Positions 40,050 to 43,361 are shown, numbered from the stretch's first letter. The stretch is 64,000 bases of DNA from Halococcus saccharolyticus DSM 5350 (GCF_000336915.1 NZ_AOMD01000009.1:1-64000); one strand, 5' to 3'. Translations and numbers: made by a program. Notes: a model not told the origin generated them from the letters alone.

Positions 40050-40395
40050 ACCAGATCATGTCCGAATCGAACAATAACAGTTGCGAAACGGATGGGACAA
40101 CGGCGAGAGCGCGATAGGGACCGCTACGTGGTGATTGGCTAGAACGTACACAAGAGCGGGCGTACAGCGCGATCGTTGACCCGTGAGCTGCTCCTTCAGA
40201 GCTGGCCATCGGTGTATCCCGTGACGCGCTGTTGAACGTATGCGCGAACGACGATGCGCACTATGCCCTCCACATGGTTGTGGGCAAGGAGGCGTACTGA
40301 TTGTCATTACCCGTATGGTTGATTCGAGTCGCCCACGATTCTGTCGTGGTACAATCCGCGCGAGTCAAGTCATACGTCGGTGAGTGAGTAAAGAG
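40050..40395. other. intergenic region at the left edge of the RM island
   Basis: 346 bp with no gene I can support. Composition becomes more AT-rich towards the endonuclease gene. No clear inverted or direct repeat marks a boundary. Confidence 0.4.
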
Positions 40396-41292
40396 CTACA
40401 CAACGTCTGAAATACGCGAGAAGTCGATCGAATGTGTTGGAAGTTCGATACTTTCGTCGAACGCATTCCAGATGCGTTTGTTGATTCGTCCGTCGCTAAA
40501 GTTCAGATCATGCCACCAGATGTGTTTCAAGATACGGTCGTCTTCGATATCGTTGATGCCTGTGAGGACATCAAATAGGATTTCGACGAAGTGGATGTCG
40601 TCAAGTACAGGAAGTTGCGGATCAGGGTTGCCTGGCGTTGGGAAGTGCTTGGGGAATACGACTACATCAGGGATTACGCTCCCCTCGTTAGTGACGGCAC
40701 CTGCTGGTGGGTCTCGAATAACCATATAGCTCGGGTCCTGCGATTGGTTGAACCCCCAGCGGACAGCTCTATTGATGACCTCGTTCAAACGTGAGGACGG
40801 TGACTTTGTGTTTCGTGCATTTCTCTCGGACCATAGCATCAGCACGTCAGTGTTACTCGGAACTAATAGGTGGCCGATGGACTGGCCCTCACCACCCTTC
40901 ACGTCCATCGCGAAGGATTCACCAGTATCATCCAGCCTCCCTTTGAAGTCGATACGCTCACTCCCTCGCTGGTCAACGTACGTTAGTAGACCTTGCTCCT
41001 CTGCAGATTCAAGGAAAACGTCACGCACGACATCCTCGTTGTCTGCTCCGTGGCCCTGTCGATACATTCCTCCAAGGGAGAAGACGGCGTCCCGAAGTTC
41101 CCGTGAATAGTCTTGGGGAGTGATTGCCTCGTCATCAAACACTTCCGGGTGAGTGTCTCCGAGATTCTCTATCAATCGTTTCACCTCTTCCAACGTCTTC
41201 TTACGGTCTGCAGTGCCCAAGTCTGTGAATCCGAGCGTATCTGTCCAGGGGTCTTTCTCTACCACATACTGATTCGGACACCGTCTCTGCAA
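40396..41292 (-). CDS. predicted type II restriction endonuclease (PD-(D/E)XK)
   Basis: 298 residues. A PD-(D/E)XK-type core is visible as RID115F...D130-V-K132-GGEGQS, with Asp115, Asp130 and Lys132 as the likely catalytic set. The GGEGQS stretch after the lysine recalls several type II restriction enzymes, but I cannot assign a recognition site. Lower GC and codon use unlike the neighbours suggest transfer. The frame opens at TTG 41292; the GTG at 41265 (VVEKDPW) is an alternative start. A palindrome upstream is shared with the methyltransferase promoter, pointing to coordinated control. Confidence 0.7.
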   Translation of the reverse strand: MQRRCPNQYVVEKDPWTDTLGFTDLGTADRKKTLEEVKRLIENLGDTHPEVFDDEAITPQDYSRELRDAVFSLGGMYRQGHGADNEDVVRDVFLESAEEQGLLTYVDQRGSERIDFKGRLDDTGESFAMDVKGGEGQSIGHLLVPSNTDVLMLWSERNARNTKSPSSRLNEVINRAVRWGFNQSQDPSYMVIRDPPAGAVTNEGSVIPDVVVFPKHFPTPGNPDPQLPVLDDIHFVEILFDVLTGINDIEDDRILKHIWWHDLNFSDGRINKRIWNAFDESIELPTHSIDFSRISDVV

Positions 41293-41316
41293 ATAGAATA
41301 GATCCGAGAATATCGA

Positions 41317-41338
41317 TGCATAGGTTTCTACCTACGCA
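41317..41338. promoter_or_regulatory. operator-like palindrome, nuclease copy
   Basis: TGCATAGGT-TTCT-ACCTACGCA, 9-bp arms with one mismatch and a 4-bp spacer, lying 25-46 bp upstream of the endonuclease TTG start. 18 nt are identical to the copy at 42946-42967. The arms contain the AT-rich part of the presumed promoter. Confidence 0.65.
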
Positions 41339-41425
41339 AACAGATAGGTCTTCAGTTCGGTGAACGAAACGAGACCGCACGGATGAGTGGATAGTGGGTT
41401 TAGCTGTCTGCTGGTTCGAAGTCCG

Positions 41426-42208
41426 CTAAAAGTCGGCCAGCGACTGTTGCTGAATGGGGGCGAGACGCTCTTCGATGACAGCTCTGAACTCTTCGTTCAG
41501 CTCGTACCCGATGCACGCCCGCTCAAGGTCAAGAGCTGAGCACGCAGTCGTGCCGCTTCCGAAGAACGGGTCGAGGACGGTGTCCCCTTCATCTGTTGAG
41601 ACCTGAACGATTCGGTTGCTGAGCGAGACAGGGAACGGTGCTTTGTGCAGGACGTTCGTGCCGACCGACCCCCGCTTCACTGGATGCCGCCAGAGATTGC
41701 CGAGCCGATGTCCGGTCTCCACCGCGGGGTCTTCAGTACCGTTTGAACCACGCTCCTCACGAAACTTGTGGCCCTTCGACTTAGAGAGGTAGACGACATA
41801 CTCCTTCTTGTTCACGACGTTCCGGGCGGTCATCCCTGCGATGGCGGTCGGCTTGTACCAGGTGACCACGTCCTGAAGAACAAAGCCTACCTCTTCTGCT
41901 CGTTCAGCGATGTGATATGGGAGGAGTTGGAGGTCCCCCCGCTCCATCACGGTGTCAACGACAATCCACATCGTCCCGTCGTCGGCGAGTTTGTCGTAAC
42001 ACTCGCTCCATACTGTCTGCATCCGGTCGTGATACTGATTGTATGACTCATCGTTCGTGCCTATCTGGTCCTCGTGACCGTAGTCCTTCAAGTTCCAGTA
42101 GGGGGGCGATGTAATCACAGACTGGATTGACCCGTCCTCAACGGCTTCCATATTCTCACTTGACCCCCAGTGTACGTCCAACTGGTCGAAGGTGTCGATG
42201 TCTGGCAT
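41426..42208 (-). CDS. beta-class DNA amino-methyltransferase
   Basis: 260 residues. Motif IV TSPPY is at residues 33-37 and motif I LDPFFGSGTT is near residue 215, so the order IV...I marks the beta class. TSPPYW fits N4-cytosine or N6-adenine modification. The central part, about 60-190, should include the target-recognition domain. The ATG at 42208 overlaps the stop of the upstream methyltransferase-like gene (TGATG), so the two are coupled. It precedes the endonuclease on the same strand and is likely the protective enzyme of this system. GC is low for the window. Confidence 0.85.
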   Translation of the reverse strand: MPDIDTFDQLDVHWGSSENMEAVEDGSIQSVITSPPYWNLKDYGHEDQIGTNDESYNQYHDRMQTVWSECYDKLADDGTMWIVVDTVMERGDLQLLPYHIAERAEEVGFVLQDVVTWYKPTAIAGMTARNVVNKKEYVVYLSKSKGHKFREERGSNGTEDPAVETGHRLGNLWRHPVKRGSVGTNVLHKAPFPVSLSNRIVQVSTDEGDTVLDPFFGSGTTACSALDLERACIGYELNEEFRAVIEERLAPIQQQSLADF

Positions 42209-42933
42209 CAATTGGTCACTTCTCCGGTAAGGTTCGTGTGAGCGAGTTTCTCAACGACCCGGTCTTCGCCTGTGACCGTATCCACGAGGCTGTCGCCACC
42301 GTTGATGACGTAGACGGCCTCACCCTCGTCTGAACCAACGATAACGCATCGACGGACTGCTTCTTCGAGGGGAATCGGTCCCGTTTCGTCGATCTCTTGA
42401 TTGTCTGTTTGTGTCCGATCTTCCTTGAGCCAGACGTTGCCTGGGTCCTTGCCGTTCTCATTGTACCGACTCACTTTCTGGTCATGGTATGCACTATTGC
42501 CCTTCCTCCGTTCCCCACCCCACTCGTGCCCTTCGTAGACGTGTGCAACACGTATTCGGTCCTTCTCGAACCGATATTCGCGCTTGTTCTTGACAAAGAA
42601 GAGAATCTCGTCGTATGCGCTCTCCATGTCTGCCCCTCGGTCTTCCCATCGATGGACAGTGATGGTGTTCTTCAGCACAAGGTTTGCCTCCCCTCTGGCA
42701 TGGTCTGCTATTGCCATCGCTGCAGGCCACATTCGACCGCCTCGGTAGTCGTTTGGGGCAATGACCCAGAGGACCTCACTATCGCTCATTCGGTCGTAGA
42801 TAGATGACCAGAGACCACTCGTCTCATCTAGCAAACCGTCTATAGAAGTCGCCTGAGAAACACAAGCAGTGAGGTCAACGAAGTACATCCGATCATCTAT
42901 CCCTTCTCGTTCTCGGTGACTTGAGTTCTTCAT
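42208..42933 (-). CDS. catalytically degenerate methyltransferase-like partner
   Basis: 241 residues that follow the same plan as the neighbouring methyltransferase. VLWVIAPNDYRGG matches its MWIVVDTVMERGD, YDEILFFVKNKREYRF matches EYVVYLSKSKGHKF, DPGNVWL matches RLGNLWR and PIPLEEAVRRCVIVGSDEGEAVY matches PVSLSNRIVQVSTDEGDTVL. But the motif IV position reads VDLTACV instead of TSPPY, and the motif I position reads VINGGDSLVDTV instead of LDPFFGSGTT. It probably cannot bind SAM or catalyse. It may be a structural or DNA-recognition subunit of a heterodimer. Not a recent pseudogene, as the frame is intact. Confidence 0.7.
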   Translation of the reverse strand: MKNSSHREREGIDDRMYFVDLTACVSQATSIDGLLDETSGLWSSIYDRMSDSEVLWVIAPNDYRGGRMWPAAMAIADHARGEANLVLKNTITVHRWEDRGADMESAYDEILFFVKNKREYRFEKDRIRVAHVYEGHEWGGERRKGNSAYHDQKVSRYNENGKDPGNVWLKEDRTQTDNQEIDETGPIPLEEAVRRCVIVGSDEGEAVYVINGGDSLVDTVTGEDRVVEKLAHTNLTGEVTN

Positions 42934-42945
42934 TCTACTCCCGAA

Positions 42946-42967
42946 TGCATAGGTTTCTACCTAGGCA
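42946..42967. promoter_or_regulatory. operator-like palindrome, methyltransferase/regulator copy
   Basis: TGCATAGGT-TTCT-ACCTAGGCA, 9-bp arms with one mismatch and a 4-bp spacer. It lies 13-34 bp upstream of the methyltransferase-like gene (ATG 42933) and in front of the divergent regulator. More AGGT half-sites (cataggtgattaggtatg) continue to about 42983, beside a TATA-like tatagtttatg for the regulator. Confidence 0.65.
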
Positions 42968-43020
42968 TAGGTGATTAGGTATGTATAGTTTATGACCGAC
43001 CTAAAGAAACATCTCTGTGA

Positions 43021-43266
43021 ATGAGTTTGACGCTGACGGACGCCAAACGGACCATCCTCGCTCTCCTCGCGGACAAGCCCCGGCATGGATACGCGCTCGC
43101 GAGCGAGGTTGGCGTCCAGGGGAGCACAATGTATGAACACTTGCAGCAGCTCGAAGGAGCAGGCTACGTCACAAGTCACGAAGACGGTCGCAGGAGGATG
43201 TATAAGCTCACTCGGCGAGGTGAACTGACTGTTGAAGCCGATCAGATCGGTGACTCCACTGGCTAA
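43021..43266 (+). CDS. PadR-like winged-helix regulator
   Basis: 81 residues. The whole protein is a winged-helix domain: ILALLADKPRHGYALASEVG, then GSTMYEHLQQLEGAGYVTS, wing EDGRRRMYKLTRRGE. The HGYAL block is a PadR hallmark. It has no PadR C-terminal dimerisation helix, so it is a minimal form. It is divergent from the methyltransferase pair across a palindromic site and probably controls the restriction-modification genes, similar in role to a C protein. The ATG is 25-38 bp from a TATA-like element. Confidence 0.75.
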   Translation: MSLTLTDAKRTILALLADKPRHGYALASEVGVQGSTMYEHLQQLEGAGYVTSHEDGRRRMYKLTRRGELTVEADQIGDSTG

Positions 43267-43361
43267 CAGTATCCCGCACTGGCGAGCGAGACTTCTCTTC
43301 CCAGAGGAGTGCAGCGAGACTCACAAACGTACTGTGTATTAAAATTCGTTTACTGAAGACA

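Follow-up and report, generated by a model that had tools for sequence, protein, structure and literature searches.

Does a short segment of the Halococcus saccharolyticus genome encode a restriction-modification (RM) system with its own controller and, if so, how might that controller act? The window analyzed here, a 64,000-nt stretch of strain DSM 5350 (GCF_000336915.1, NZ_AOMD01000009.1:1-64000), carries four genes between positions 40396 and 43266: a putative restriction endonuclease gene (nuc), two methyltransferase-like genes (mtA and mtD) and, divergent from these, a gene for a small PadR-like winged-helix protein (reg); we write their products Nuc, MtA, MtD and Reg. A preliminary description, made from the sequence alone, had read the segment as a regulated RM locus comprising a nuclease, a methyltransferase pair and a controller. 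We judge that reading to be supported, given a conserved four-gene unit and a conserved operator at two promoters. It is probable, in our view, that the locus is a mobile Type II-like RM module with its own controller, in which the methyltransferase genes are repressed and reg and nuc are co-controlled. The unit is well supported and the mechanism moderately so.

We surveyed 394 Halobacteria genomes, including eight others of the window's genus. The intact arrangement, reg divergent from mtD-mtA-nuc with order and orientation kept, was found in 13 genomes from 12 genera, with identities to the window of 54–67% for Reg, 48–68% for MtD, 65–80% for MtA and 61–74% for Nuc. A methyltransferase and a separate putative endonuclease are thus encoded together in 13/13 intact cassettes. 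nuc occurs in 14 of the 394 genomes, one copy being a decayed remnant, and full-length mtD likewise in 14, yet searches with nuc and mtD found no cassette genes in any of the eight other genomes of the genus. Because the four genes co-occur in 12 genera and are absent from those eight, they constitute a conserved, horizontally moving unit. A patchy, mobile distribution is typical of RM in Halobacteria (PMC6471742). Wide conservation of the methyltransferase pair without the nuclease, which the preliminary description had named as evidence to the contrary, was not seen: nuc and reg accompany 13 of the 14 intact dead/active methyltransferase pairs. In a phylum-wide sample reaching beyond the Halobacteria, all nuc matches fall in the same order. 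mtD had no match in viral contigs, and the one nuc match there (L051) was rejected, being short and lying inside an unrelated open reading frame of a phage-like contig.

The boundaries of the module can be read from an empty site. In the two closest relatives (G072 and G325, of the same genus), 48 bp stand where the window has 40097–43359, and the flanks align to the window at 89–95%. The empty site indicates that the module came (or was lost elsewhere) as a single 3,263-bp piece; no integrase was seen, and the insert ends have no terminal repeats. Between ∼40.1 and 43.3 kb the GC content is 0.52–0.55, versus ∼0.65 in the surrounding haloarchaeal DNA, so the low-GC island noted earlier is real, and the gene positions given at that time also held, with mtD, mtA and nuc on the minus strand and the 81-residue reg on the plus strand. 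One start codon was revised. For nuc (40396–41265, minus strand, 289 residues), the TTG at 41292 was replaced by the GTG at 41265, the point from which homologues align and the choice that gives a constant spacing between operator and start codon.

Several other copies of the cassette have features of their own. One, on plasmid PL100 of Haloquadratum walsbyi C23 (L058), has its nuc annotated as 'hypothetical protein'; a Type I RM locus that includes two genes for S subunits lies a few kilobases away, so that the plasmid carries a defence cluster. Haloarchaeobius iranensis is another named carrier. In a decayed cassette (L028, genome G365), mtA has been lost, mtD and nuc persist as fragments with stops, and reg is partial. 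In another (L024, genome G348), the C-terminus of Nuc is longer and differs from that of the other copies, and MtD is extended C-terminally by ∼35 residues.

The preliminary description had placed a shared palindrome at both promoters, and this is what we find. An exact 19-mer, TAGGTAGAAACCTATGCAT, occurs at 41316–41334 and again at 42945–42963; since none of 100 shuffles reproduced this, the repeat is not a matter of chance. It belongs to a tripartite operator, TAGGT-n6/7-CCTATGCATAGG. In the reg/mtD intergenic regions (81–118 bp) of all 13 loci, CCTATGCATAGG is matched at 10–12 of 12 bases, and a third, less strict TAG-type half-site lies 6–7 bp away on the mtD side. The window's copy of this operator, common to reg (plus strand) and mtD (minus strand), spans 42947–42971 on the plus strand (GCATAGGTTTCTA plus the dyad CCTAGGCATAGG); it lies 49 nt ahead of the reg ATG, with its dyad 26 nt ahead of the mtD ATG, and is kept in 13/13 loci.

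A position weight matrix (PWM) was trained on the reg/mtD operators only, with the tested locus left out, and applied upstream of nuc. The best match lies upstream of nuc in 13/13 loci (shuffle P values 0.001–0.005), and the site is strong and in register in 12 of them. In the window this second operator, GCGTAGGTAGAAACCTATGCATCGA, occupies 41313–41337 on the minus strand, with 47 nt between its end and the start codon of nuc. Spacing to the nuc start is 46–47 nt in 11 of the 13 loci as scanned and in 12 if L023 starts at a GTG eleven codons upstream, which would turn its 80-nt spacing into 47. When each locus is divided into 110-nt tiles, no more than one or two of them reach the PWM score of the nuc site; sites of this kind other than the two operators are thus almost absent there. 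Elsewhere in the genome there was one match with three mismatches, versus four for a reversed-pattern control, giving no sign of a wider regulon. In the window and three other loci (L016, L026 and L027), the nuc operator has a degraded half-site on the side facing nuc, and its affinity may differ for that reason.

Promoter geometry differs between the two sides. The operator has the same orientation toward reg and nuc, and its distance to reg (44–50 nt) is close to that to nuc. At both genes, in most loci, a TATA-like CTTATC or ATTATC lies ∼27 nt before the start codon and at equal distance from the dyad; a TATA slot about there is expected for leaderless haloarchaeal genes. In the window, the predicted slot of reg is 42988–43000 (plus strand; GTTTATGACCGAC, where most homologues have CTTATC) and that of nuc is 41286–41298 (minus strand; TTCTATTTGCAGA, where most homologues have an ATTATC-like sequence), each at about −27 relative to its start codon. 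On the mtD side, the dyad starts 20–28 nt ahead of the start codon in 12 loci, over the expected TATA/start region, and in most loci it extends over roughly −24 to −35 relative to that codon. From this geometry we infer, as the simplest reading, that mtD-mtA is repressed and that reg and nuc are under common control, which is probably positive. Reg would bind the tripartite operator at the two promoters; over the mtD start region it would repress mtD-mtA, and from its sites immediately ahead of the TATA boxes of reg and nuc it would co-control both genes, most likely by activating them. In a new host, methyltransferase would then be made first, Reg would accumulate, and nuc would be turned on as the methyltransferase is throttled.

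Is Reg the kind of protein that could do this? The reg gene (43021–43266, plus strand, 81 residues) is found in all 13 intact cassettes (alignment A4). Its product matches PadR (PF03551) with an E value of 1.2e-10, above the gathering score, and also scores as TrmB/ArsR-type and other winged helices in Pfam and NCBIfam; there was no match to HTH_3, in line with the earlier call of a PadR-like rather than XRE-type regulator. In the PadR family a C-terminal helical dimerisation segment follows the winged helix; in Reg only ∼10 residues follow the winged-helix match. All reg matches below an E value of 1e-25 in the 394 genomes are cassette members. The next tier of relatives (36–50% identity) includes proteins of ∼80–90 residues encoded beside other DNA-enzyme genes. 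A reg relative lies just downstream in 7 of 9 haloarchaeal loci for SacI-type endonucleases (PF09566), and the two loci that lack one have the most divergent endonucleases. The controller reading is strengthened independently of the window's locus because the reg family repeatedly accompanies RM systems.

Two groups of these relatives merit description. In the SacI-type operons (L121–L126 and L129; also L092, L097, L100 and L103), a D12 methyltransferase gene and the PF09566 gene are joined by an ∼81-residue winged-helix gene that stands last in 7/9 loci, and some loci have ATCGGTTTTAGCCGAT-like inverted repeats ahead of the endonuclease and ahead of the regulator. At L095, L098 and L102, a reg relative and a NucS_C-like nuclease gene are transcribed away from each other, with ACCGGT-type repeats in the intergenic region; two of these three NucS_C-like genes were scored, and both match PADLOC PDC-S11, a candidate defence model.

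The methyltransferase genes form a pair of unequal members. MtA (41426–42208, minus strand, 260 residues, with the ATG at 42208 the most likely start) matches PF01555 with an E value of 1.6e-45 and has TTHA0409, MboIIA and CcrM as relatives in the PDB. Motif IV (TSPPYW, residues 33–38) precedes motif I (DPF(F/L)GSGTT, residues 213–221; DPFFGSGTT in the window) in 14/14 copies (alignment A3). By these sequence motifs and their order, MtA is a beta-class amino-methyltransferase, and it is predicted to be active. TSPPYW is often found in N4-cytosine enzymes and does not settle the target base.

MtD (42208–42933, minus strand, 241 residues) also matches PF01555, with an E value of 1.9e-7, and profile–profile comparison with MtA (hhalign, E value 5e-8) identifies the two as paralogues (the METHYLTRANSFERASE pair). 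The alignment begins past the SPPY segment, and the DPFxGSGTT position in MtD reads VYVINGG or similar. The dead partner inferred in the preliminary description is thereby recovered, as SPPY and DPFxGSGT are both missing from 14/14 copies. Because all 14 copies are open, both motifs are absent and the median ratio of nonsynonymous to synonymous substitution rates (dN/dS) is 0.12, which reflects purifying selection, MtD appears to be a maintained pseudo-enzyme. The MtD model is weak (predicted local distance difference test score, pLDDT, 55.9), but Foldseek pairs it with 36 experimentally determined chains at E ≤ 1e-3, and the matches listed are DNA methyltransferases (M.RsrI, M1.MboII, M.BceJIV, TTHA0409 and M.PvuII). 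Conservation is strongest in a central block between the two fold halves, ending in RYN-x-x-GKDPGNVW. In beta-class enzymes the region between the fold halves carries target recognition (PMC4490356). We infer that MtD pairs with MtA as a heterodimer, probably supplying DNA recognition and taking the place of the second identical copy with which beta-class methyltransferases normally dimerise.

Nuc is the component whose identity is hardest to establish. As a single sequence or as a profile, it had no credible match in Pfam, NCBIfam, PADLOC (which includes many restriction-enzyme models), PHROGs or the PDB. It thus matched neither a known non-restriction family, which the preliminary description had said would tell against it, nor RE_SacI or any other restriction endonuclease profile in Pfam, NCBIfam or PADLOC, and no DNA-recognition domain was recognisable in it. 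D106 and D121-x-K123 are invariant in 13/13 homologues (alignment A1), within the invariant segments E103-R104-I105-D106-F107 and F118-A119-M120-D121-[VI]-K123-G-G-E-G-Q-S; D75-N76-E77-D78, also invariant, lies in a predicted helix preceding this catalytic-like motif. Strands are predicted at 104–111 and 117–123, and the order helix-strand-strand(D)-strand(DxK) is what would be expected of a PD-(D/E)XK fold, in which neighbouring strands of an alpha-beta-beta-beta-alpha-beta core bear the catalytic D...(D/E)xK. Median dN/dS is lowest for nuc (0.05), followed by mtA (0.07) and reg (0.10). The invariant motif and the linkage suggest that Nuc is a restriction endonuclease of a PD-(D/E)XK-type family that has no name.

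Some observations weigh against our interpretation. The AlphaFold model of Nuc, built from a two-row alignment, has a pLDDT of 49.5, and its Foldseek matches were discarded as noise; a fold search with so weak a model carries no weight, and the case for a nuclease is built from motif, conservation and linkage, with no structure or family match confirming it. The geometry of the promoters is the sole basis for the proposed sign of regulation. At L022 the in-register nuc operator is weak or degenerate, and at L024 the mtD start lies 57 nt from the operator, further than elsewhere. Finally, one genome (G186) has an orphan mtD-mtA pair (L050) without nuc and reg, 3′ of a ParB-DUF488 gene. This orphan points to an association of the dead subunit with methylation and not with restriction. 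Its setting (L050:5556–8185), after the ParB-DUF488 fusion gene, is possibly a provirus or mobile element.

The orphan pair is also where a reading without any restriction would start. Such a locus would be an epigenetic methyltransferase locus linked to a protein of other function that resembles PD-(D/E)XK, and the want of a nuclease family or fold match for Nuc agrees with it. We think this very unlikely, as D106 and D121-x-K123 are invariant in every homologue with the expected strand order, nuc is under the strongest constraint of the four genes by dN/dS, and the patchy mobile distribution is typical of RM in these organisms (PMC6471742). A different arrangement of the same parts would make Nuc and the methyltransferase subunits a single complex with MtD as common recognition subunit, resembling Type I or IIB enzymes rather than separate Type II enzymes. 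The strongly conserved central block of the non-catalytic MtD and the lack of a recognisable DNA-recognition domain in Nuc would then be explained, but nuc has its own promoter and operator within 160 bp after mtA, the logic of separately timed enzymes, and the mtD-mtA pair exists at L050 without nuc. We regard a single complex as improbable.

It is less easy to set aside the view that the RM module is as we describe and Reg simply represses all three promoters, making the locus a homeostat, with Nuc, Reg itself and the methyltransferase all held at low levels, rather than a timing switch. The operator is found at every promoter, and winged helices of the PadR and ArsR types often repress their own genes. 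Placement of the sites argues the other way: ∼47 nt separate the operator from the reg and nuc starts, which leaves the TATA slots free, whereas on the mtD side the operator overlaps the start region. A homeostat is unlikely, and we retain the module with a repressed methyltransferase and co-controlled reg and nuc.

A module of this kind works like the C-protein Type II RM systems (PvuII, BamHI, Esp1396I). In those systems, C activates its own transcription and that of R and can repress M (reviewed in PMC12707154). Common to both is a small regulator that controls its own gene, with operators at its own promoter, at that of the endonuclease gene and in some cases at that of the methyltransferase gene; in the cassette, conserved operators lie at the promoters of the genes in the roles of C, R and/or M. 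Delayed restriction and a repressed methyltransferase, described for C-protein systems (PMC12707154), would apply to the window's module as well. It is nonetheless not a member of that group, because its regulator is a PadR-like winged helix rather than an XRE-type helix-turn-helix, its nuc is transcribed from a promoter of its own and not together with the regulator gene, and its methyltransferase comprises two genes. Haloarchaeal SacI-type systems share a 38–46% identical winged-helix partner in 7/9 loci and, in some, inverted repeats before R and the regulator, but differ in having a single D12 methyltransferase, a known endonuclease family and a regulator that is last in the operon, not divergent.

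The methyltransferase pair has its own parallels. The beta-class enzymes TTHA0409, M.RsrI, M1.MboII, M.BceJIV and CcrM, to whose class MtA belongs and whose fold MtD shares, differ from MtD, which lacks motifs I and IV; these enzymes are taken to act as homodimers. Division of labour in this class is established for the EcoP15I Mod2 dimer, in which one Mod recognises and the other methylates (PMC4490356). In having one catalytic and one recognition or scaffold subunit, MtA/MtD would resemble both EcoP15I Mod2 and METTL3-METTL14 (PMC4490356); however, the Mod subunits are identical polypeptides, whereas here the dead copy is encoded within the RM operon, and METTL3-METTL14 is of another lineage and mainly an RNA enzyme. 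In the literature searched, with partial coverage, we found no paper linking PadR to RM controllers, nor one describing an active/dead methyltransferase pair in a prokaryotic RM system, and a text search of a 2023 archaeal RM survey found no controllers or C proteins. The earlier statement that no archaeal RM system with this combination is known fits that literature; priority is not thereby proven, REBASE being outside the scope.

A broader proposal is plausible without being probable: that haloarchaea evolved an RM controller family of their own, a minimal PadR-like winged helix serving at least two unrelated RM types and arriving independently at C-protein logic, with M repressed and C and R activated together, on archaeal TATA promoters. 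In the window's module this controller would govern an endonuclease of a new family and an obligate heterodimer of one active and one dead methyltransferase, with recognition and catalysis divided between them. RM regulation in archaea has been little described. If our interpretation is correct, nuc would add an endonuclease family, and the mtD/mtA pair would show in a prokaryote how two subunits share the work, as they do in EcoP15I and as has been proposed for METTL3-METTL14. A portable module with an operator at two promoters would also make the avoidance of self-cutting upon RM acquisition directly testable in a model such as Haloferax volcanii.
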